Shown piece by piece: positions 3,720 to 15,648 of a stretch of DNA of 64,000 nt (positions within the stretch are counted from its first letter, which is position 1; every line of letters begins with the position of its first letter). Made by a program: the position numbers and the translations under genes. The stretch spans positions 248,001-312,000 of the forward strand of contig NZ_JARGDQ010000004.1 in the NCBI RefSeq assembly GCF_029210385.1, read 5' to 3'. Origin of the DNA: Desulfurivibrio dismutans. Lineage in GTDB: Bacteria > Desulfobacterota > Desulfobulbia > Desulfobulbales > Desulfurivibrionaceae. The notes under the pieces are model-generated. The model did not search any database. It was given only the letters and a program-made list of their open reading frames with translations, and was not told the DNA's origin.

Positions 3720-4327
3720 CTACTGAGTTTTTTCGCAATTTTAGCCACGTGTTCCCCCTGGAAGCGGGCGCCGGCCAGTTCGTTGGCGCTGGGCTGGCGG
3801 CTGCCGTCGGCCCCGGCGATGGTGGAGGCCCCGTAAGGAGAGCAGCCGGAGATTTCGGTGGCCTCCATCTGGCCGCTAAAGCTGTAGGGCAGCCCCACGA
3901 TCACCATGCCGTGGTGCAGCAGGGTGGTGTGGAAGCTGAGAATGGTGGATTCCTGGCCGCCGTGCTGGGTGTTGGAACTGGTGAACACACTGCCGGCCTT
4001 GCCCACCAGGCTGCCCTGGGCCCAGAGTTGGCCGGTGGCGTCGAGAAACTGCCGCATCTGGCCGCACATGTTGCCAAAACGGGTGGGGGTGCCGAAAATA
4101 ATGGCATCGGCCTCGGCCAACTCTTCCGGGCTGCAGACGGGGATGCTTTCCTGTTGTTGTTGCGCCTCCGTCGCCCCCATTTTAGCCAGCACCTCGGCGG
4201 GCAGGGTTTCCGGTACCCGGCGCAGGATCACTTCCGCCCCCTCCACCTGGCCGGCTCCCTCGGCCACGGCTTGGGCCAACTGCTGGATGTGGCCGTACAT
4301 CGAGTAGTAGACGATCAGTACTTTCAT
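3716..4327 (-). CDS. wrbA: NAD(P)H:quinone oxidoreductase WrbA, flavodoxin fold
   Basis: FMN-dependent two-electron quinone reductase that avoids semiquinone formation, cytoplasmic. The 203-residue protein starts with the FMN phosphate loop YYSMYGHI and has PTRFGNM and the WrbA signature [18 protein letters not shown] near residues 110-130. Its ATG overlaps the stop of the upstream histidine kinase gene (ATGA), so translation is probably coupled. It is the last gene of a three-gene reverse operon (binding protein, hybrid kinase, WrbA). This suggests a quinone or redox stress reductase made together with its sensor, but that link is inference. Confidence 0.93.
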
Positions 4328-6675
4328 TTTGGATCCTCCTTGTGGCTTTCAGTTGATGCTGTAAGCACCTTTTCCAGTTCCTTAAGCATGTAAGGCTTGC
4401 TGATAACGCCGTTAAAACCATATTTTTCCGGGTCGGCCATGATCGGGTCGTTGGCGTAGCCGCTGGAGACGACCACCCGGGCTCCGGGATCCAGCCGGCG
4501 GAGCTCCTGCACTGCCTCCTTGCCGCCCATACCGCCGGGGATGGTCAGGTCCATGATCACCAGATCAAAGGGGTTTCCCTCTTCCCGGGCTTTGTGGTAG
4601 GCGGCGACGGCCGCCTCCCCGTCCGCCGCTTCCTGCACCTGGCAGCCCAGCTGCTGCAGAATCTTTGCCGCCACCTGCCGTACCATCTCTTCGTCATCCA
4701 TCAGCAACACCTGCAGCGGAGAGGTCCGGAGAGGCGGGGGATGATCATCGACGGCGGGCAGGGAACCGGGGTCGGTGGCCGCCGGCAGCAGGATGGTGAA
4801 GGTGGCGCCTCGGCCCGGAGTCGAATCCACGGTAATTCTACCATAATGCTTCTCAATAATGGAATGGCAGACCGCCAGCCCCAGGCCGGAGCCTTTTTCC
4901 TTGGTGGTGAAGTAGGGGTCGAATATTTTCGCCTGGTTCTCCATGTTGATGCCGCCGCCGCTGTCGCTGATGCTGATTTCCACATAACCGTCGGCGGGCA
5001 GGTTTTCCATCGGGCCCCGGTTGCGGCAGCTCACGGTGATGGTGCCGCTGCCGTTGATGGCCTCCCGGGCGTTGATGATGATGTTCTGGATCACCTGGCT
5101 GATCTGGCCGCTGTCCACCTTGACCAGTTTTAAATCTTGGGGAATTTCATAGGTGCAGCTCACCTCGCTGCCCCGCAGGACAAAATCGGCGGAGTCGCGG
5201 ATGATGTCGGCAATGGAGGCGGTCTGGCGGATGGGGGCGCCGCCCCGGGCAAAGGTCAGCAACTGCTGGGTCAATCCCCGGGCCCGTTGCGAGGCTTTTT
5301 TACCCTCCTCGATCAGGCTGCTGGCCTGGTGTTCCGGCCCCAGCAGGTAGCGGGCCAGCTCCAGGTTGCCCAGGATGGCGGTGAGAATATTGTTGAAATC
5401 GTGGGCAATGCCGGCGGCCAGCACCCCCAGGGATTCCAGTTTTTTGGCCTTGAGCAGTTCGGCTTCGGTGCGTAAAGCCTCGCTGACATCGCGGAAGACC
5501 AGCACCACCCCGATGATCTCACTGTTGAAGTCGCGGATGGGGGAGCCGCTGTCGGCGATATGGTACCGGCTGCCGTGGCGCGAGATCAGCACGGTGTGGT
5601 TTTCAAGCTCCACGTTGAGGCCGGTCTGCAGCACTTTCTCCACCGGGTTGGGGCACGGCTCACCGGTGCGGTCGTTGATGATCCGGAACACCTCCGGCAG
5701 CGACCGGCCCCGGGCCTCGTCCTGGGACCAGCCGGTGAGCCGCTCGGCCACCAGATTTAACAACACCACCCGGCCGTCGGTGTCGGTGGTGATCACCCCG
5801 TCGCCGATGCTGCGCAGAGTCACCGCCAGGCGTTCCTTTTCCGCCGCCAGCTCAGCCTCCCGCCGGCTGATGATTGCGACCTGCTCAGCGGCCTCCCTGG
5901 CTCGCCGCTGCAGAGTAGCGACCATGCTGACCAGGCTGTCGCGCAGGGTGGCAAGTTCCAGGATAAAACCGGAGCGAGGCGGCTGGGACTGGTCATCGTC
6001 AAAACCTTGGCTGGCATAGTGGTTGAGTTGAATGATGGGCCTGATCAGGTAACGCTGCAGGCCGTAAACGAACAGCGCCGCCACCAGCAGCACCATCGCC
6101 AGCACCGTTAAATTGATCTGCAGAAACATATGTTTGGGGGCAAAAAGCTCGTCGTGACTGATGGTCAGACCGACATAGCTTTCCCATGGCTGGTAATACT
6201 CAAAGGCCGCCAGTTGCCGACCGACGGCGTTGTCGTAGGTGATAATATGCTGGCCGGGCGATGTGGTGTTAAGGGTGGTCAGAAAATCGTGGAAATGGGG
6301 GTCGTTGTCCGCCGCAAATTCCTTAGCCAGCAAAATTTCGCCGCTCCGGTTCACCACAAAAACCGAACCGCTGTCCCGGTAGCGATAAGCTTTAAATTCG
6401 TTCAGGGCCAGATTCTTGATCTCCCGCTGGTGCACCAGGCTGTCTTCCAGGCCAATGCGGTACAGGGTTTCATAGCGGCGGTCCACCGGCTCCAGCAGGG
6501 CCAGCAGCTTGCTGTGCAGCAGCTCACCGCCCATTTCATGGATGTTGCGGTCCATCAGGCGGGTGCCGGCCAGCAGCAGGGGCAGGGAAATGGTGATGAT
6601 CAGCAGCAGCATGGCGCCCAGAAAAAAGGTGCGGATGGAGCCGGTGGTGGTCGGCGGCGGCGAATTGGCCGTCAT
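4324..6675 (-). CDS. hybrid sensor histidine kinase (periplasmic sensor-PAS-HisKA-HATPase-REC)
   Basis: 783-residue membrane sensor kinase. Order: transmembrane helix (about 15-38), periplasmic Cache-like region (about 40-180), second helix (about 183-205), HAMP-like linker and coiled coil, PAS (about 285-405), HisKA with H-box HDFNNIL, HATPase_c with [15 protein letters not shown] and GSGLGLAV, and a C-terminal receiver with the phospho-acceptor Asp in [12 protein letters not shown]. The start shares one base with the stop of the binding-protein gene (TAATG), and the stop overlaps wrbA. The upstream binding protein probably presents a ligand to this kinase. No separate DNA-binding regulator is in the operon, so the output is unknown. 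Confidence 0.9.
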
Positions 6676-7724
6676 TATCTTACCACCATGTCCACCGCCT
6701 CAAGAGCGGCAAAGGGAATATTAATACCCAGTTTCCCGGCATTACGAAAATCGATAAAGGCCATCTGGCGGGCCGGCCGGGGGATTACCTCGGTGATGGC
6801 GCTGCGGCCGTCAAACAGGTCGGCGCTGATTTCCGCCGCCTGGCGGCCGGTATAGCTGAAGGGATTAAAAAGCCCGGCCAAGGTGTTATCGACGGCGGTG
6901 AAGTCGGCGATATCCTCGATTTCGATGTCCGGAGTGAAGGCGGTGATCACCGGCAATTCACTGCCGGCCAGGGTACGGCGATGGGGCAGGTAGCCAACAA
7001 TGCCGCCGTAGGCGCCGATATTGCCCTGTCTCAGGGCGGTAAGCACCGGTTCAAGGCCCTGGGCCAGATCCAGGTAGTGGAGATTGATACCGTAACGGGA
7101 CGGTGTCGGAAGTTGGCGGTAGGCCCGGTAAAAAGATACATCTGCCGGGATGCGGGAGTCGTAAATAAAGGCGTAGTCGGTAAGCTGCGGCATCAAAAGG
7201 CGGGCCAGGCGGAGAATTTTCTCCGGCGGGTACATCAGATACATCCCGGAAAGATTGGTGTTGGGCGGCTCCTGCAAGGAGGGCAGCGTTCGGCGGGCGA
7301 CGCTGTCCAGCACCGGCACGAAGAGCTGGGGGGTGTCGGTATGCTGCAGAATTTCCCGGGCCACCATGGAGATCCAGCCACTGGTGATGAACAGGTCGGC
7401 CTGCTCAAGATGGCGCTCTACGGCGGCGATGACTTCCGGTATTGATTCCTGGTCGGTGGTGGTGGTTAAAACATCGATATAGGTCAGCTCCCGCCCGGCC
7501 CGGTAGCCCAGTTTGGCCATGGTATCCTGATAGGCTTCCACCACGGGGGTAAAGTGATTGGGCTCGATGGGGTAGCGGATGAACACCACCGTTTTGGGCT
7601 CGGCCATGGCCGACACGGGCAGGGCACCAAGCATCCCCGTCAAAACAAGGCTCAACAGCAGCAGCCGGAGCAGCGTCCGGGCCGGGTAGACGGTTCTTGT
7701 GCTGTGCTCCTTCGCTCCAGGCAT
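6675..7724 (-). CDS. ABC-transporter-type substrate-binding protein (PF04392-like), exported
   Basis: Periplasmic binding protein of the tryptophan/tyrosine-type ABC substrate-binding family. The 349-residue protein begins with a signal peptide: basic n-region, Leu-rich core RLLLLSLVLTGMLG, and a site after VSAMA. The mature part has the two-lobed pattern seen in this family (IDVLTTTTDQES, PVLDSVARRTLP, GIVGYLPHRR). ATG at 7724 is chosen because GGGAGA lies five bases upstream; a longer reading adds 28 residues ahead of the signal. No permease or ATPase is adjacent. It overlaps a sensor kinase gene, so a sensing role is more likely than transport (inference). Confidence 0.82.
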   Translation of the reverse strand: MPGAKEHSTRTVYPARTLLRLLLLSLVLTGMLGALPVSAMAEPKTVVFIRYPIEPNHFTPVVEAYQDTMAKLGYRAGRELTYIDVLTTTTDQESIPEVIAAVERHLEQADLFITSGWISMVAREILQHTDTPQLFVPVLDSVARRTLPSLQEPPNTNLSGMYLMYPPEKILRLARLLMPQLTDYAFIYDSRIPADVSFYRAYRQLPTPSRYGINLHYLDLAQGLEPVLTALRQGNIGAYGGIVGYLPHRRTLAGSELPVITAFTPDIEIEDIADFTAVDNTLAGLFNPFSYTGRQAAEISADLFDGRSAITEVIPRPARQMAFIDFRNAGKLGINIPFAALEAVDMVVR

Positions 7725-7842
7725 TTGCTCTCCCGGTGGTTGAGTTATTGGTCGTCTGCCAAGGCGAAGCCTCTCGGTTGGTCCGGTTCGCTCAGCCGCG
7801 TCTGCCACTGAGTGTACCTGAAGGCGGGGTGGCTGTGAAGAG

Positions 7843-7908: not shown

Positions 7909-9072
7909 TTACTTATGACACCTGGCGCAGGCGGTGGCGGCAAAGGCTGCCTGGCCGTTGTGGCAGGAGCCGCAGAACTGGCCCTGGTACATCTGGTTCA
8001 TGTTCATGGGTGTGGCGTGGGCCTCCATGGTCCAGGGTTCGTTATGGCAGGTGTCGCAGTTGAAGGCCATGCCGTGGAAGCTGTGGTTGAAGTCCACCGG
8101 GGCAAAGCCTTCCATGGTGTAAGTAATGGGCTCCTGGGGCATGGGGGCCTGGCCGTGGCAGGAGTTGCAGTCGTAAGAGGCCATCCGGCCGTTGTGGCAG
8201 GAGTAGCAGTAATTGCTGCTGGTGTGATCGTCAAAGCTGATTTCGCTGACCCCGACCTTCATGGGGAAGAGGTCGGTATGGCACTGGTCGCAACTGAACA
8301 TGGCGCCGTGGGTGTCATGCCGGAAGCTAACGGCGCTGTCGCCTTCACCCATGACGATCTCCGACATGGAGATTTCCCCGGCCTGTTCGCGGTGGCACTC
8401 GCTGCAACGGTTCAGGTCCACCGCCGCCCGGTACTCCCCGCCGTGTACCATTCGATGATGACAGTCCATACAGGTCAGGCCGGCGTTGATGTGCCGTTGG
8501 TGGTTGGGGTCGATGTCGCTTTTCAGCTCGTCGGTGAAGATATCGCGCATGCCGCGCTCCTGCCGGAATTCCGGATTCTCCACCGTGTCCAGCAGCCGGA
8601 ACTTATGCCCGATGGACATCAGGCGTTCGGAGCGGATTTTCTGATTGACGCTGTCGGTATGGCAGAACAGACAGGTGGTGGAAGGCACCAGGTTGGCGGC
8701 ATACTGGGGATCGTCGATGGCCTTGTTGAGAATTTCAAGCTTGTATTCTTCGGAGTGAAAGATCTCCACGTAGGTGTCGTACAGGCCGCCTATCTTGGCC
8801 TTCTTGTAGCCGAAGATGCCCGGTTCGCCATGGCAGTCCAGACATTTGACGCCGGCTTCGGCGTGGATGTTCTGGCGCCAGGTGTGGACCTCGCTCAGGG
8901 CGCCGGTGCCGGTGCCGGGATGGCACATCTCGCAGAATCCGGGCTCACTGGTCATGTGCATGGCCTGCAGGTTGACGTAGCTGAAAACGGCGATAAAGGC
9001 GATTAAAATGACAATGCTGGTTTTGGGACGTTCATTGACAAATTCTTTGACTTTACGAAATAGTTTTTTCAT
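7909..9072 (-). CDS. membrane-anchored 11-heme cytochrome c (NapC/NirT-like N-terminus plus two triheme repeats)
   Basis: Electron-transfer protein, probably taking electrons from the quinone pool to the periplasm. An N-terminal anchor (residues about 18-36) precedes eleven CxxCH motifs starting near residues 47, 77, 134, 201, 223, 261, 289, 302, 339, 367 and 382. The first four follow the NapC/NirT layout. The C-terminal part has two copies of a triheme pattern, each with an F-x-H-x2/3-H lead-in and a terminal CxxCHNG...CxxCH block, resembling c7-type triheme domains. 387 residues. It follows the Sec-rhodanese gene but a strong terminator lies between, so it may have its own promoter. Partner and acceptor are unknown. 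Confidence 0.9.
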   Translation of the reverse strand: MKKLFRKVKEFVNERPKTSIVILIAFIAVFSYVNLQAMHMTSEPGFCEMCHPGTGTGALSEVHTWRQNIHAEAGVKCLDCHGEPGIFGYKKAKIGGLYDTYVEIFHSEEYKLEILNKAIDDPQYAANLVPSTTCLFCHTDSVNQKIRSERLMSIGHKFRLLDTVENPEFRQERGMRDIFTDELKSDIDPNHQRHINAGLTCMDCHHRMVHGGEYRAAVDLNRCSECHREQAGEISMSEIVMGEGDSAVSFRHDTHGAMFSCDQCHTDLFPMKVGVSEISFDDHTSSNYCYSCHNGRMASYDCNSCHGQAPMPQEPITYTMEGFAPVDFNHSFHGMAFNCDTCHNEPWTMEAHATPMNMNQMYQGQFCGSCHNGQAAFAATACARCHK

Positions 9073-9298: not shown

Positions 9299-10495
9299 TT
9301 ACTTGACGGTGAAAGTACCGTCCGCGGCGTACGCAATCCCCTGGTTCAGGTACTGGACCCCGTGGGGGTTGCTGTAAAGTTCGGGTTCATCGAGCATGAT
9401 GTCGCTGACCATGAAGAAAACCCCGCCGGAACGGGCGCCGGTGGCGCAGATGATGATCACCCGGCGATCAGTGGGCAGTTTGGCCATCGCCCCTTCGAGA
9501 TCCGCATAAAAATCCCCGTCGGGAATGTTGATGGCGCCGGGAATACTGCCCTCGGCAAATTCCCGCTCACTGCGCACGTCAACCAGGGCCACGTCGTCGG
9601 CCTTGACCGCCGCCATGAAATCTTCCGGGGTAATGGTTTCCGGCAGGGCGTCGGGATCCACCTCGGCCATTTCCACTCCGGCGGCCTCGTAACCCCACAG
9701 CGGCAGATCGGCCTTCTTCCAGGCCGGCACCCCGGCGGAGTAAACAAAGACCTTGGTGTAGCCAAGCTCCAGGGCGGCCTTGGCCGAGTTATGGCTCAGG
9801 TCGCAGTGGTGACCGCCGCAGTAGAAGATCAGCGGCAGGTCCTTGTCCGCCGGCAGCAGGCCTTTCTTCTGTTCAAAGAGCACCCAGGGGATCGAGACTG
9901 AGCCCGGGATGTGCTCACCCTGATGCACCCGGGGGGGCCGGGAGTCGATCAGGACAAAGTTTTCCCGATCGCTGGCCTCCACCAGCCGCTGGACATGGGG
10001 GGTGTCGGTGATGCGATAGTTGCCGGCTTTAGTCCAGAAGGGTTCGCCTTCGTAGTATGCACGGATATCGGTGAAACCATGTTCTTGGGCGACGACCGCC
10101 GCCTCTGCGGTGAAGGGTCAGGTGGGCCCTCCGCAGTAAAAGATCAGGGTCCGATCTTTGGGGAGCTTGGGGATATCCTGGGCAAAACGCGGGGTGGGGA
10201 TGTTGATGGAGCCGGGAATGGTGCCTTCATTGAAACGTACGGGCGGCCTGGTGTCGATGAGCAGAAAGCTGGTGTTTTTTTTCAGCGTTTCTTCAATCAG
10301 CGGCGCATCGCCGTACTCCTTGGCAAACAGGTCCATCAACTGTTGCGTGGTGATCCGCAGTTTGGGATCCTGCTCCACCGCCTTGGTGTGGCCGGCCGCC
10401 GAGGGGGCGACCGCCTGGCCCGAGGTGGCGGCGCAGCCCGCTGCAAAGAGCAGGAGCAGAACCGCCAGGGCGCTGGTTAAAAAACGTGGCTTCAT
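9299..10495 (-). CDS. triple-rhodanese lipoprotein, putative selenoprotein (UGA at codon 126)
   Basis: Sulfurtransferase-type protein with three rhodanese domains. The 398-residue frame is open except for one TGA at 10118-10120. N-terminal lipoprotein signal with Cys21 in FAAGC. Domain 1 (about 45-145) has YCGGPT-UGA-P; domain 2 (about 150-262) has the matching YCGGHHCDLS, so UGA126 lines up with Cys231, and Cys121 with Cys226. Domain 3 (about 280-385) has the single Cys350 in ICATGARSG. The sequence after the UGA keeps rhodanese character (EHGFTDIRAYYEGEPFW). A GGUC-capped hairpin follows the UGA. ATG at 10495 has AAGGAGG six bases upstream. It lies downstream of psrABC. It would carry sulfane sulfur in the periplasm (inference); a stop-codon pseudogene is the alternative. 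Confidence 0.85.
10088..10103 (-). promoter_or_regulatory. candidate bacterial SECIS hairpin
   Basis: Minus-strand GGCGGC-GGTC-GTCGCC: six pairs (one G-U) closing a GGUC loop. The loop begins 20 nt after the in-frame UGA. In Escherichia coli fdhF the SelB-binding loop is also a GGUC placed just under 20 nt after its UGA. Position and loop sequence fit a SelB-dependent SECIS; folding was judged by eye. Confidence 0.65.
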
Positions 10496-10578
10496 GGTAG
10501 GCCTCCTTGTGCGTTGTGTGTTTAAGGGCCGGCGCGACCCTTTCGCGCCGGCCGTGGTCAACGGCTTTATTTGGTTGT

Positions 10579-10716: not shown

Positions 10717-11877
10717 TCAATGGTTGTCTGCGTCCAGGTTGAAAAAACGGCCGGCCAGGATATAAAGCAGCAAACACAGGCCCATCCCACCCAGCACAAT
10801 GGCGATCTCGGTCAGCGAGGGGGTGTAGCTGAGCAGTCCGCTGGCACCCACCGCGTCAACATCGGAGCGCAGGGGAACTAGCTGGCCGGTGACCACCAGG
10901 TTGTAGCGCATGAAGAAGATCCCGATCATGCTGCTCAGGGCGGCCCAGGTGGCGACCTTGAGGTTGCGCCCCCCGGTGGCCAATAGCAGGATGAAAGGCA
11001 GCAGCATCCCCAACAGAATCTCAAACCCCCAGAAGCTCCAGGAAAGTGGGCCGCTGAGCAGGATCATCATCGCCTCGTATTTTCCCGGGGCGCCGCCATA
11101 AACCGAGGTCAGTACCTTCCAGGCCTCGAAGAAGAGCAGGATTCCCAGCAGCATGGCGAAAAGGCGGCTGATGGAAACCAGGGTCTCGCTGATCCGGACC
11201 GGCATCTCCTCCCGGGCGTAACGCACGGCGTAAAGCAGCAGGATGATGGCGCAACCGGTAACGGCGGCGGAAAGAATGAAATAAATCGGCAGAAAGGGAC
11301 CATGCCACCAGGGACGGGCGTCAAGATAACCGAAAACCGCGCCTAAGTTGGAATGGGCCGCCACCCCGGCGATGAAGCCCGCCAGGCCCAGGTAACCGGC
11401 CCATTTGTGGTTGACCTTGATCATAAAACGGAACTCCAGCAGGATAAAAACCAGGTAGAGCCCGTAAAGGGTGCCCATCCACCAGATGGCGGCGGCCAGG
11501 TTGGGGGTCAGGATGTTGTAGATCAGCATCCGGAAGGGATAGCCGATTTCAGCGGCGATCACCGCGAAACCGGAAAGCAGGGTGATGATGGCCATGGCAA
11601 TGGCCCGTTTGCCGATCACCTCGAACTGCTTGATGCCGAAAACATGCCCCAGTGACGAAACCAGGCAGAGCCCGGTGCTGGAGACCACGAAGAAGATGTA
11701 GGTGGAAATCAGGATTCCCCAGGGCACCTGCCGGTAAATGTTGTAGGCGTCATGGCCCTGGATCAGGTAATTGGCCAGCCCGACCAGCCCGATCAGGCAC
11801 AGAACCCCGGTGGTCAGCAGCCAGGCCAGGTCGCCGCGGGAATTTATCAATTTGCCGTTAATGGTAAGAGTGTTCAT
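10717..11877 (-). CDS. psrC: NrfD/PsrC-family quinone-interacting membrane subunit
   Basis: Membrane anchor that exchanges electrons between the quinone pool and the Fe-S subunit of a polysulfide/thiosulfate reductase-type enzyme. 386 residues with about nine or ten hydrophobic helices and the NrfD-family arrangement, including helix segments around GILISTYIFFVVSS, WWMGTLYGLYLVFILLEF and FLPIYFILSAAVTG. It follows the PsrB-like gene by 12 bases in the same operon. The substrate cannot be read from this subunit; psrC is used by analogy with PsrABC. Confidence 0.85.
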   Translation of the reverse strand: MNTLTINGKLINSRGDLAWLLTTGVLCLIGLVGLANYLIQGHDAYNIYRQVPWGILISTYIFFVVSSTGLCLVSSLGHVFGIKQFEVIGKRAIAMAIITLLSGFAVIAAEIGYPFRMLIYNILTPNLAAAIWWMGTLYGLYLVFILLEFRFMIKVNHKWAGYLGLAGFIAGVAAHSNLGAVFGYLDARPWWHGPFLPIYFILSAAVTGCAIILLLYAVRYAREEMPVRISETLVSISRLFAMLLGILLFFEAWKVLTSVYGGAPGKYEAMMILLSGPLSWSFWGFEILLGMLLPFILLLATGGRNLKVATWAALSSMIGIFFMRYNLVVTGQLVPLRSDVDAVGASGLLSYTPSLTEIAIVLGGMGLCLLLYILAGRFFNLDADNH

Positions 11878-11889
11878 GCCGACCCCCTG

Positions 11890-12459
11890 TTATGAAAGAT
11901 AGAAAAGACTGGGTTTGGTGCCCTTCTCCGGCTTGAGCACGTAGTAATGGTGCCGGGCCAGCAACCGGGAAACTTCGCTGTCGGGGTCGTTGAGATCCCC
12001 GAACACCCGGACCTTGGTGGGGCAGGTATCAACACAGGCCGGCAGCTTGCCTTGGGCAATCCGGTGGGCGCAAAAGGTACACTTGTCGATCACCTTGGTC
12101 TGGGGCGACTTGAAACGGGCATCGTAAGGGCAGGCCAGGATACAGGTGGCGCAGACGATACAGCGCTTGTAGTCGATGGCCACCAATCCCTCCGGTGTCT
12201 GGTAGGAGGCGCTGGTGGGGCAGACCTTGACACAGGGCGGATTATCGCAGTGTTGGCACTGGCTCGGTTCAAAGCGTTGCTTGAGGTGGGGAAAGGTGCC
12301 TTCCACGCCCTTGGAGGTGATCCAGTTGCGATAAACCTGCCGGTCGGTGCCGGCGTCAATCTTGTTTTCCCGCTTGCAGGCAACGTCGCAGGCCTTGCAG
12401 TCGATGCACTTGTCGGGGTCTACCACCATGACCCACCGTTTTTTTCTCTCTTGCGACAT
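11890..12459 (-). CDS. psrB: 4Fe-4S electron-transfer subunit (PsrB/PhsB-like)
   Basis: Carries electrons between the membrane subunit and the molybdenum subunit. The 189 residues hold sixteen cysteines in four groups (18/21/24/28, 68/71/76/80, 100/103/106/110, 127/130/142/146), the pattern for four [4Fe-4S] clusters in DmsB/PsrB/PhsB. There is no Tat signal of its own, so it would be co-exported with the catalytic subunit. It starts three bases after the catalytic-subunit stop. Confidence 0.9.
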   Translation of the reverse strand: MSQERKKRWVMVVDPDKCIDCKACDVACKRENKIDAGTDRQVYRNWITSKGVEGTFPHLKQRFEPSQCQHCDNPPCVKVCPTSASYQTPEGLVAIDYKRCIVCATCILACPYDARFKSPQTKVIDKCTFCAHRIAQGKLPACVDTCPTKVRVFGDLNDPDSEVSRLLARHHYYVLKPEKGTKPSLFYLS

Positions 12460-12462
12460 GGT

Positions 12463-14661
12463 TTAGACCCTCCTGATTTCGACAATGGTTTCATGCATCA
12501 GGGCATTGCCGGAGATCGGCTCGAAGTGGGATTCCAGGATGGCGGCCTGGGAGGCTCCCCGTTGATAAACCAGGGGCTTGCCCGGCGAAATGCCGCCGTA
12601 ACCCGGGGCGTAGTAAACGCAGTCGGGACGAATCCCTTCGGTGACCTTGGCCTTGACGGTGACCTGGCCGCCGCTGCGGTTTTGCATCCGTACCGTATCA
12701 CCGTCCTTGATCCCCAGCCGGCGGGCCGGTTCGGGGTTGAGCCAGACCGCGTTTTCCGGCAGATGCCAGTTGAGCTCGGGAAAAGCGGCGGTCATGGAGT
12801 TGGTGTGGATGGCATGGCGACCAACCAGGAAGCGGAAACGGTCATCGCCCGGCTCTTCGGGCCGGCGGAACACCGGTAGCGGGTCGAGCCCCCGGCCGGC
12901 AAAATCTTCGCTGTAAAGCTCGACCTTGCCGGTGGCGGTGTTGAATCTTCTTCCGTCTTGCCGGTAGGCCCCGAATTCCACCTTGGGGATGGCGAAAAAG
13001 GCTTTTTTTCGCAGTTGTTCCCAGGCGCCGGGGTGATCGGCGAGCGCGTCGCGGGCATGATCTTCCGGAGTTCCTTCGAAATATTCGTTCAGCGGAAAGC
13101 CGTCCTCGTCTTCAAAATAGGCCCCCAGTTCGGTGACGATCTCAAAGCAGGGCTTGGTGTCGTAAAGGCGGTCGATGAGGGGTTGGCGAAAGACCACCGT
13201 GGGTTCGATGCCGCCCATGCCGTAGGCGTTGGGGGGATCGAAGCGCTCCAGGTAGTTGCTCTCCGGCAACACCACGTCGGCATGCCAGGCGGTTTCGCTC
13301 ATGACGGTGTCGATGCAGACGATGATATCCAGCTGGTCGAACAGCTCCAGGCTTTTGTCGCGGTTCGGCACCGATTCCAGCACGTTCTGCTTGTAGATGA
13401 ACAGGCCGCGAATGCGGTAGGGGTCGGCCTTGAGGGCGCGATCCCGCCAGGCTACCCAGGAGCCGTCCCGGGGGTTGAGAAAAATAACGTCATCGCTTTC
13501 CAGCCGGGGTCGGGACTGGCTGTACCAGGCCGGTTCATAAAAATAAGAACGCATGGGGACGTTGGTTGCCGGCAGCAGTCCGCCGGGGCGGTCAAAGGCC
13601 CCGATCAGGGCGTTGACGATGGCAATCGCCCGGCGGGTCTGTACCTCTTCCCCCTGCCAGGAGGAGCGTCGGCCGGGGTAGAACACCGAATGGGGGGTGG
13701 TGGCCAGCTCCCGGGCGATCTGCCTGATATCGACGGCGGCAATCCCGGTTTCACCTGCAGCCCACTCAGGGCTGTATTGCTTGACGTGTTCGGTAAGTTC
13801 CGCCAAGCCGGTGCAGAAATTATCCACAAAGTCGCGGTCGTAGAGATTTTCGGCGATTATCACGTGGGCCAGGGCCAGGGCGAAGGCCATATCGGTGCCC
13901 GGTTTGATGGGCAGCCACTGGTCGGCCTTGGCGGCGGTTTTGGTAAAGCGCGGGTCGAGATAGATCAGTTTGTAGCTGCCCTTGGGGCGGCTGAAGATGT
14001 CCATGGTGTCCGGGGTGAAGATGGCCTCGGCGCGGTTGGCGCCTGCCATGATCACGTAACGGGCGTTTTTCAGGTCGGTTACCGGATAAGTGCCGAATAC
14101 CGATTGAAAGCCGCGAATTACCGAGCTTAAGCAAAGAGTTGGATGGCGCAGGGAGTTGGGGGAGCCAAAAACTTCGCGGAACTGATTCCAATAATGCTCC
14201 TGAAAAGTGCCCTCCGAGGAGGCAAAGCCGATGCAGGAGCGATGGCCGTCTTCTTCTTCCACCACCTGATTGGTTTTGTCGGCGATATATTTATAAGCCT
14301 CTTCCCAGGTGGCCTTGCGCCATTTACCCTCACCCCGCTTACCGGTGCGGATCATGGGGTACTTGACCCGGTCGGGGTCGTACGGGGTCCAGGCGCCGGC
14401 GTTGCCCCGGGCGCACATCATGCCCCGGGACTTGGGGAAATCAGGTTCCGGCTCCAGGCGTTGAATCACTCCGTTGACCACCTGGCCGCGAAAGACGCAC
14501 TTGCTGGTGCAGATGGCGCAACTGGAGTTGACGTAGCGCACTTCCCCGGCTCCGCTTTTAGCCTCGGCCTTGCGGACAAAGCGTAGCCCCGCCGACCCTG
14601 TTCCAAGGGCACCGAGACCGGCCACCGAACCGGCCAGGAATTTTCTTCTCGAGACTTTCAT
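12463..14661 (-). CDS. psrA: molybdopterin oxidoreductase catalytic subunit (polysulfide/thiosulfate reductase type)
   Basis: Periplasmic bis-MGD enzyme of the DMSO reductase superfamily. 732 residues. Tat signal SRRKFLAGSVAGLGALG, then a [4Fe-4S] site at Cys48, 51, 55 and 83, and a candidate molybdenum-ligand Cys177 in LRHPTLCLSS. A Cys ligand fits the PsrA/PhsA/NapA side of the family. Downstream MGD-binding segments include VIMAGANRAEAIF, PGRRSSWQG and a C-terminal domain from FRFLVGRH. Its neighbours are a TorD-like chaperone upstream and PsrB- and PsrC-like genes downstream. Substrate is inferred: polysulfide, sulfur, thiosulfate or tetrathionate are all possible, with the adjacent rhodanese favouring a sulfane-sulfur substrate. 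Confidence 0.88.
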   Translation of the reverse strand: MKVSRRKFLAGSVAGLGALGTGSAGLRFVRKAEAKSGAGEVRYVNSSCAICTSKCVFRGQVVNGVIQRLEPEPDFPKSRGMMCARGNAGAWTPYDPDRVKYPMIRTGKRGEGKWRKATWEEAYKYIADKTNQVVEEEDGHRSCIGFASSEGTFQEHYWNQFREVFGSPNSLRHPTLCLSSVIRGFQSVFGTYPVTDLKNARYVIMAGANRAEAIFTPDTMDIFSRPKGSYKLIYLDPRFTKTAAKADQWLPIKPGTDMAFALALAHVIIAENLYDRDFVDNFCTGLAELTEHVKQYSPEWAAGETGIAAVDIRQIARELATTPHSVFYPGRRSSWQGEEVQTRRAIAIVNALIGAFDRPGGLLPATNVPMRSYFYEPAWYSQSRPRLESDDVIFLNPRDGSWVAWRDRALKADPYRIRGLFIYKQNVLESVPNRDKSLELFDQLDIIVCIDTVMSETAWHADVVLPESNYLERFDPPNAYGMGGIEPTVVFRQPLIDRLYDTKPCFEIVTELGAYFEDEDGFPLNEYFEGTPEDHARDALADHPGAWEQLRKKAFFAIPKVEFGAYRQDGRRFNTATGKVELYSEDFAGRGLDPLPVFRRPEEPGDDRFRFLVGRHAIHTNSMTAAFPELNWHLPENAVWLNPEPARRLGIKDGDTVRMQNRSGGQVTVKAKVTEGIRPDCVYYAPGYGGISPGKPLVYQRGASQAAILESHFEPISGNALMHETIVEIRRV

Positions 14662-14710: not shown

Positions 14711-15223
14711 TCAGTTGTCCAGCCGGCTGTTGCCGCCGTGGCTTAAACCCGCCAGGATTTCCTTGAGTTCAGCTGCGGCGGCGGCGTAGAAACCCACCTC
14801 GTCGTGTTCTTCCAGGGCGGCGGCGAAGCGTTCCGGCCATTCCTGGTAATACCTTTCCAGTAGCGAATTAATGTCCAACCCCGGTGACTCCTTGGCCTCG
14901 GCCAAAAGCAGGGCCAGCGTTTCCAGCATGGCGGGAATATGGTCGGGCGGATGGCCGGAGCTGATAACAATACCGCGTTCAAGACAGATACCGCTGAAAT
15001 CGATCATGAACTGTCGTCGGTCATGCTGATCCAGGTAATGGCCGGCGTAAGGCGGGGCTTTAGTGCCGCCGCGGTCGTTGATAAACAGCCGCACATGGGT
15101 GTTTTCCAGCTGATCAAGTTGTAAGTTCAATTGCTGCGCCAAGGCGGCGGATGGGTAGTCGAAGCAGCCGGCGAGGTTGAGCAGTTGCCGGGGGGCGGGC
15201 GTGGTGTGCGAAGTTGCTTCCAT
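14711..15223 (-). CDS. TorD/DmsD-family redox enzyme maturation chaperone
   Basis: Cytoplasmic chaperone that binds the Tat signal of molybdoenzymes and helps cofactor insertion. 170 residues from ATG 15223; a longer frame adds eight residues. All-helical composition with family motifs: APPYAGHYL near the middle and the signature HPPDHIPAMLETLALLLAEA. ATG 15223 is preceded by GTGGAG at good spacing. It lies 50 bases upstream of psrA, its likely client. Confidence 0.85.
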   Translation of the reverse strand: MEATSHTTPAPRQLLNLAGCFDYPSAALAQQLNLQLDQLENTHVRLFINDRGGTKAPPYAGHYLDQHDRRQFMIDFSGICLERGIVISSGHPPDHIPAMLETLALLLAEAKESPGLDINSLLERYYQEWPERFAAALEEHDEVGFYAAAAAELKEILAGLSHGGNSRLDN

Positions 15224-15254
15224 GTTTTTTCTCCACATTTGAAGCATGGCTGGG

Positions 15255-15303: not shown

Positions 15304-15648
15304 TCAACCACAGGATTCCGGTTTCTGGTTCATGGGGTCATCGGAATCACTGGCATGCTCATGGAGAAAGAGGAAAATGTGCTTCGCTACTCTGGCGTTA
15401 ATACCGCTGCCGCCACAGGGCAGCTTGTCCTTGGCGGTGGTGAACATTTCCCGCCACTCTTCCCGGGTATGGGCGCCGGGCACCGGAATTTCTTCATCGC
15501 AGGTGCGGGCTTGCCCGGTGAACCAGGCCCATTGGCCGCGCTCCTTGTTGGCATTTTCAAAGCCGTCAAGGTCCCAGGCCAGGGCCAGGCCGGGCAGGGT
15601 GGCGAGAACAAAGGCGGTGATCAGGGCGAGTGAGAGTAAGCGTTTCAT
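15304..15648 (-). CDS. small exported protein of unknown function, first gene of the psr locus
   Basis: 114 residues, not recognised as a named family. A clear signal peptide (KRLLSLALITAFVLATLPGLALA) leaves a mature part of about 90 residues. That part has three cysteines (about 50, 78 and 113) but no CxxCH, so it is not a c-type cytochrome. AAGGAG six bases before the ATG is a strong start. It lies upstream of the chaperone and molybdoenzyme genes in the same direction, separated by a perfect hairpin. A periplasmic accessory role in sulfur metabolism is a guess from context only. Confidence 0.75.
   Translation of the reverse strand: MKRLLSLALITAFVLATLPGLALAWDLDGFENANKERGQWAWFTGQARTCDEEIPVPGAHTREEWREMFTTAKDKLPCGGSGINARVAKHIFLFLHEHASDSDDPMNQKPESCG

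Follow-up and report, generated by a model that had tools for sequence, protein, structure and literature searches.

A probable selenocysteine in a triple-rhodanese lipoprotein encoded by a polysulfide/thiosulfate-reductase-type operon of Desulfurivibrio dismutans

Sud of Wolinella, a small, single-domain rhodanese without selenocysteine (Sec), delivers sulfur from polysulfide to an enzyme of the Psr/Sre type. Rhodanese sulfur suppliers of sulfur reductases were reportedly also described by Aussignargues in 2012. Desulfurivibrio dismutans is a soda-lake sulfur bacterium. In D. dismutans AMeS2, the Psr operon RS06465-06490 is strongly upregulated in S0 disproportionation, and RS06465 is presented as a three-rhodanese sulfurtransferase with a signal peptide and a predicted lipid anchor; the main text of that paper contains the string 'seleno' 0 times (PMC12142623). 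We analysed a 64,000-nucleotide stretch of D. dismutans DNA, hereafter the window, which holds a six-gene operon ending in a triple-rhodanese gene. Numbered in fives, RS06465-06490 would likewise comprise six locus tags, and the window gene is very probably RS06465. Since the paper credits RS06465 with all three domains, the public gene model may already cross the in-frame UGA at codon 126.

The original prediction mentioned Sec-containing rhodanese-like proteins from selenoproteome surveys, and Sec rhodaneses are indeed a known kind. Rhodanese form 1 is catalogued with the motif UxxS (WP_010941598.1; PMC13188914 Table 1), from which the window protein departs with U-P-F-T. TsoB (NF045694, UxxxxU) shares with the window protein the spacing of two chalcogens within a rhodanese domain. 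However, TsoB itself is DsbD-fusion-like and carries two Sec, whereas the window protein is CxxxxU, contains only rhodanese according to Pfam, and scores 97.9 bits against the TsoB cut-off of 805. The 126-position profile NF041203 (rhodanese form 3, (seleno)protein, CxU) matches two stretches of the window protein at 70 bits, below its cut-off of 115, and has its Sec two residues after the Cys, whereas the spacing is five in the window protein. Altogether 19 NCBIfam models match the protein, none above its own cut-off, and in the open-access literature searched we found no passage that names this protein as a selenoprotein.

The triple-rhodanese gene lies on the minus strand at 9299-10495, ends in TAA, and follows a ribosome-site-like AAGGAGG at 10502-10508. 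Retranslation gave 398 codons with TGA at codon 126 (10118-10120, minus strand) as the sole break, exactly as the original prediction had stated. Pfam places PF00581 at three stretches (E=1.7e-45, 154.1 bits versus a gathering cut-off of 22.2), and the third domain holds a canonical CATGAR loop, which bears out the earlier remark that rhodanese character resumes past the UGA. The N-terminus shows a lipobox by eye, LFAAGC (Cys21), and the protein is probably secreted and lipid-anchored. Specifically, domain 1 carries YCGGPT-U and domain 2 YCGGHH-C with equal CxxxxC/U spacing; the predicted placing of the UGA opposite Cys231, with the C-G-G-x-x-C spacing kept, proved exact in spacing and residue numbers. 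Cys121 (10133-10135), the first Cys in the active loop of domain 1 (C-G-G-P-T-Sec), does not vary among the 11 rows of alignment A2, nor does Cys226 of domain 2 (9818-9820), and Cys231 (9803-9805) is Cys or Sec in all rows, being Sec in the paralogue described below. The domain-3 loop from Cys350 to Arg355 (9431-9448; all four features on the minus strand) is nearly invariant, and the pairs Cys121/Sec126 and Cys226/Cys231 occupy the positions of its Cys350 and Arg355. The AlphaFold model of the window protein is of middling quality (mean pLDDT 71.5, pTM 0.46), and for this reason we do not state how far residue 126 lies from Cys121. Most of the PDB structures that match the model are rhodaneses with one or several domains, 1yt8 being the best match.

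Comparative evidence indicates that UGA126 is almost certainly read as selenocysteine. The D. dismutans genome (G000) holds selA, selB and selD above curated cut-offs, selD itself with an in-frame TGA, together with a tRNA-Sec of anticodon TCA (UCA). TGA is kept at codon 126 in three genomes of the genus, the other two orthologues being 91% identical (G002) and 83% identical over part of the gene (G001). Ka/Ks is lower after the TGA than before it in all three comparisons (0.09 versus 0.181 for G000-G002, 0.114 versus 0.207 for G000-G001, and 0.101 versus 0.264 for G002-G001), the segment before the TGA taking in the poorly conserved, variable signal region. Among the paralogues described below, the ratio is lower after the domain-1 site in two of three comparisons and higher in one (0.157 before, 0.229 after). 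Over the 45 codons from the TGA to the first possible in-frame restart, we counted 3 nonsynonymous and 13 synonymous changes, with 43 of 45 residues identical, and a TGA in so conserved a frame far exceeds what chance would give. In G622 (TGT), G003 and f12, the homologue has Cys at the Sec126 position, and such exchanges of Sec and Cys between relatives are the strongest evidence for Sec126. The original prediction of a probable selenoprotein has therefore gained the sel genes and tRNA-Sec, Cys homologues, and TGA in independent genomes; three of the checks that it had proposed, for sel genes, for homologues with Cys or U at the site and for a bacterial SECIS element, turned out in its favour, the last by our own script with published constraints.

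The predicted six-pair hairpin with a GGUC loop, beginning 14 nt after the UGA, is present exactly as described (10088-10103, minus strand). In the published bSECIS model, the loop has 3-9 nt with a G in the first two positions, the stem 4-16 bp, the distance from the UGA is 16-37 nt, and the energy is at most -7.5 kcal/mol (PMC13188914). The window hairpin, GGCGGC-GGUC-GUCGCC with its loop at +20 and -9.0 kcal/mol, lies within these constraints, and 3-6% of control positions equal it. Specifically, a hairpin as stable occurs at 3.1% of the 2968 in-frame positions in eight ORFs of the window, after 94 of 1857 TGA triplets of the window (the one studied here included), and in 6% of 200 synonymous recodings of the gene. 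Rfam at its gathering threshold reported only a tRNA across the whole window. The window hairpin is consistent with Sec and no proof alone; it is the comparisons between genomes that convince, the hairpin by itself being weak evidence.

For statistics across sites, our script took its loop and spacing limits from the published model, required at least 4 contiguous base pairs in the stem and applied a threshold of -4.5 kcal/mol, which is less strict than the -7.5 of that model. The 51 Sec and 26 Cys sites came from best-match loci plus hand-picked regions and span several rhodanese families, and their ratio is not a frequency because many were chosen for holding TGA. Duplicate loci L014, L015, L016 and L017 were dropped, and L048, L050, L052 and L051 were kept instead. 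A hairpin at this threshold follows 51/51 Sec sites versus 11/26 Cys sites and 15% of the 23978 remaining in-frame positions; among the Sec sites, 36/51 reach -6 and 28/51 reach -8 kcal/mol, a value that two of the 26 Cys sites also reach. At the commonest hairpin position, at least four of five pairs form in 48/48 distinct Sec sites versus 12/25 Cys sites, and pairs are exchanged on both sides among 45 Sec sites, as at one pair that is C-G in 34, A-T in 9 and T-A in 1. In the register that gives the window hairpin its greatest stability (centre 21.5), at least four of five pairs form in 11/48 Sec versus 10/25 Cys sites, and this register does not separate the two classes. Protein sequence at these rhodanese sites favours hairpin pairing, and the fraction of synonymous recodings as stable is 0.05 or less at only 22/51 Sec sites and 2/26 Cys sites.

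D. dismutans also encodes a paralogue (C23:311388-312563) that shares 49% identity with the window protein; its domain 1 reads YCGGLH-C and its domain 2 YCGGYG-U. The two proteins are mirror images of each other, C/U versus U/C. The paralogue type occurs in G001, G002 and G004 as well, and the G003 copy has Cys in both domains. Full-length trees separate a window group (support 84/77 in the first tree and 100/100 in the second) from a paralogue group, and place G003 beside the paralogues. From the loci L091-L100, alignment A2 took L092 and A3 took L095, L097, L099 and L100. The domain tree was built with all ten, and L094 was additionally included in the first full-length tree.

Farther away, a scan of 395 genomes of the phylum gave 13 with E <=1e-44. 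Two species of genus g197 in family f74, G428 and G622, carry orthologues about 60% identical to the window protein and identical to each other in 346 of 394 residues. The G428 orthologue (L182) has TGA at the site, followed by a hairpin of -7.3 kcal/mol that is nearly identical to that of the window and differs by a two-sided change of the outermost pair from G-C to A-U; its domain-2 Cys site also has a hairpin, at -5.4 kcal/mol. The G622 orthologue has TGT at the site and no qualifying hairpin. G622 retains selA and selB above cut-off, the two genes looked for, and its Cys is therefore not explained by loss of the Sec machinery. Since Cys/Cys versions persist in selA-bearing genomes, Sec is not essential to the role of the triple rhodanese. 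Scans of genome-contig and viral-contig collections confirmed no close relative of the window protein, and a plasmid search returned 70 records, all below 60% identity and with less than 80% of the query covered.

Sec rhodaneses are widespread around this lineage: 94 of 97 related genomes match the window protein somewhere, many with one TGA inside. An order-wide sister family, with Sec at YCGGPTU-GM in the first rhodanese domain, occurs on 75 contig stretches in an 84,980-species collection, and by our own reading of the titles 50 of these carry Desulfobulbales-type names and 25 broader ones. A hairpin at the -4.5 kcal/mol threshold follows the TGA in 75/75; the frame stays open for at least 200 codons past it in 69/75, and 5 of the other 6 run into the end of the stretch. 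A third-domain CxTGxR-type motif is present in 68/75, three Pfam rhodanese stretches were seen in both of the two members scanned, and the one member compared with NCBIfam gave no score above cut-off. Like the window protein, this family has Sec five residues after the loop Cys and the hairpin at the corresponding place. Unlike it, the family has a different N-terminal region and, in the ten aligned, a middle rhodanese without a Cys pair, and no reductase genes were recognised from ORF N-termini in three 8-kb stretches (L119, L103, L118). Most of the family (U-G-M-S) fits the UxxS motif of form 1, as does the paralogue (U-P-H-S), and the family, set beside form 1 by motif alone, may be that catalogued form.

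Three-domain Sec rhodaneses as such are therefore not new and are common in Desulfobulbales, and the original impression that Sec was unfamiliar in this layout does not stand. What is new here is the CxxxxU pair in the window protein, its place in a reductase operon and the alternation of Sec between domains; two CxxxxC/U domains together with the reductase operon make the window type unusual. Additionally, D. dismutans has a single-domain rhodanese with an in-frame TGA (YCRGYDU; L044, G000:C28:79211-79480) and a hairpin of -9.3 kcal/mol, a stability matched in 26.5% of synonymous recodings; it is probably a third selenocysteine rhodanese of this species. Some rhodanese matches elsewhere are broken by one in-frame TAG or TAA in place of TGA (G005:C117:1013-1456, G050:C46:6138-6743, G096:C74:7579-8217 and G081:C100:7865-8521), and these could be two adjacent genes or decay.

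The window operon lies wholly on the minus strand and runs from a small protein with a signal-like N-terminus by eye (15304-15648; orthologues in G002, G428 and G622, and no Pfam or NCBIfam match) through a TorD-like assembly chaperone (14711-15247; PF02613, E=4e-12), a molybdopterin catalytic subunit of PsrA/PhsA type (12463-14661; PF00384, E=1.1e-39), a PsrB-type 4Fe-4S subunit (11890-12459; PF13247, E=1.3e-26) and an NrfD/PsrC-type membrane subunit (10717-11877; PF03916, E=3.2e-24) to the triple rhodanese as the last gene. By Pfam, the gene set of a polysulfide/thiosulfate reductase, with Mo, FeS and NrfD membrane subunits, is present. The Mo subunit scores 482.7 bits against NCBIfam PhsA, below the cut-off of 694, so polysulfide or thiosulfate as its substrate is unproven. 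All five other operon genes adjoin the orthologue in both G428 and G622, whose Mo subunits are 68.8% and 70.2% identical to that of the window, respectively. In G080 and G085, Cys/Cys triple rhodaneses adjoin Mo, FeS and NrfD genes; in G197 and G462 their neighbours are Mo and FeS genes, and no NrfD match was obtained there. With Cys/Cys proteins also beside reductase genes, the reductase linkage is wider than Sec. The paralogue adjoins a TusA gene, not a reductase, in G000 and G002, and in the stretches examined none of the operon genes was found near the triple-rhodanese copies of G003, G004 and G378. The reductase is thus not a fixed partner of the family.

Several neighbours were noted in passing. 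A distant relative of the small protein (BLASTP E=2e-4, single comparison) adjoins the f12 triple rhodanese. Directly downstream of the rhodanese gene, 7909-9072 encodes a multihaem cytochrome with 11 CxxCH motifs, found in the same place in G002, which is a possible electron partner. The window also encodes a hybrid histidine kinase with PAS and receiver domains (4324-7808) next to a protein that has no Pfam match and looks substrate-binding-like by eye, and this pair might sense a sulfur compound. At the paralogue locus (L043 9974-11176 and onwards, G000:C23), the TusA-family gene is followed, as judged from ORF N-termini, by sensor kinase and response regulator genes, a large lipoprotein and a porin-like protein, with a similar layout in G002.

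We consider the three-domain Sec rhodanese to be a periplasmic sulfane-sulfur carrier for the polysulfide/thiosulfate-reductase-type complex of its operon, with a probability of about 0.68. Gene structure, comparative support for Sec and conservation of the operon were observed directly, and secretion, lipid anchor, chemistry, direction of sulfur flow and partner are parts that we infer. Two readings would deny the selenocysteine itself. If the TGA were an ordinary stop, the gene would yield a one-domain lipoprotein, and the two downstream domains would be made separately from the GTG at 9982. An ORF from that GTG does exist, but it begins at codon 172, the earliest in-frame start-type codon past the TGA, and the 45 codons before it are conserved as protein; moreover, G622 and G003 encode the whole protein with Cys at the site, which makes this reading very improbable. 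Less probable still is a sequencing error or a recent pseudogene. A lone TGA in an otherwise open frame can look so, but the TGA recurs in G001, G002 and the distant G428, and Ka/Ks is low beyond it. Reinitiation, pseudogene and sequencing error were rejected on conservation past the TGA and on its presence across genomes.

A stronger competitor, although an unlikely one in our view, accepts the selenoprotein and gives it another task, namely maintenance of thiol/persulfide redox state or sulfur delivery to import (YeeE/TusA), and not supply of the reductase. The TusA gene beside the paralogue and the copies of G003, G004 and G378 away from operon genes speak for it, and the PDB matches of the AlphaFold model are an assortment of rhodaneses, sulfurtransferases and persulfide reductases that would suit it as well. 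Secreted sulfurtransferases of D. dismutans have been given both roles in the published work (PMC12142623). On the other hand, the window copy is the last gene of a reductase operon, and G428 and G622 have the complete operon as well, as do G080 and G085 with a Cys/Cys rhodanese.

Returning to the carrier for the reductase, the reductase genes lie upstream in the same operon, which is induced in disproportionation, and the simplest role would therefore be to provide the reductase with sulfur from polysulfide, in the way that Sud serves Psr in Wolinella. Cys121 and Sec126, at the positions occupied by Cys and Arg in canonical rhodaneses, would act as a redox pair. Polysulfide would put sulfur on Cys121 (or on Se), and the partner selenol or thiol would close an S-Se or S-S bridge. 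Closure would free HS- or transfer the sulfane sulfur to the Mo subunit; the bridge would then be reopened by a reductant or by more polysulfide. The original prediction had described a redox-active, low-pKa sulfur carrier, and the low-pKa argument is weak. D. dismutans grows at pH 8.5-10.25 with an optimum of 9.5 (PMC12142623), which makes a low pKa a poor reason for Sec in the predicted periplasm, where a Cys thiol would be largely ionised too. Sec is more likely to serve faster S-Se exchange or reversible oxidation. More tentatively, we propose that the protein may represent a respiratory sulfur carrier whose tandem domains bear one Cys/Sec and one Cys/Cys pair; over evolutionary time its Sec could occupy either domain, and it would serve fast S-Se exchange, not antioxidant defence.

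This case bears on how microbes bring reactive or insoluble sulfur to the reductase when they respire or disproportionate sulfur. If our reading is true, this would be, to our knowledge, the first selenoprotein to stand directly in the path of sulfur during these processes. For gene annotation there is a warning, as callers that stop at UGA would cut short a protein of an induced respiratory operon. The natural Sec/Cys pairs, that is, G428 with G622 and the two paralogues of D. dismutans, make the benefit of selenium directly testable. Sec in a sulfur carrier would, if true, tie selenium supply to the sulfur energy metabolism of this organism.
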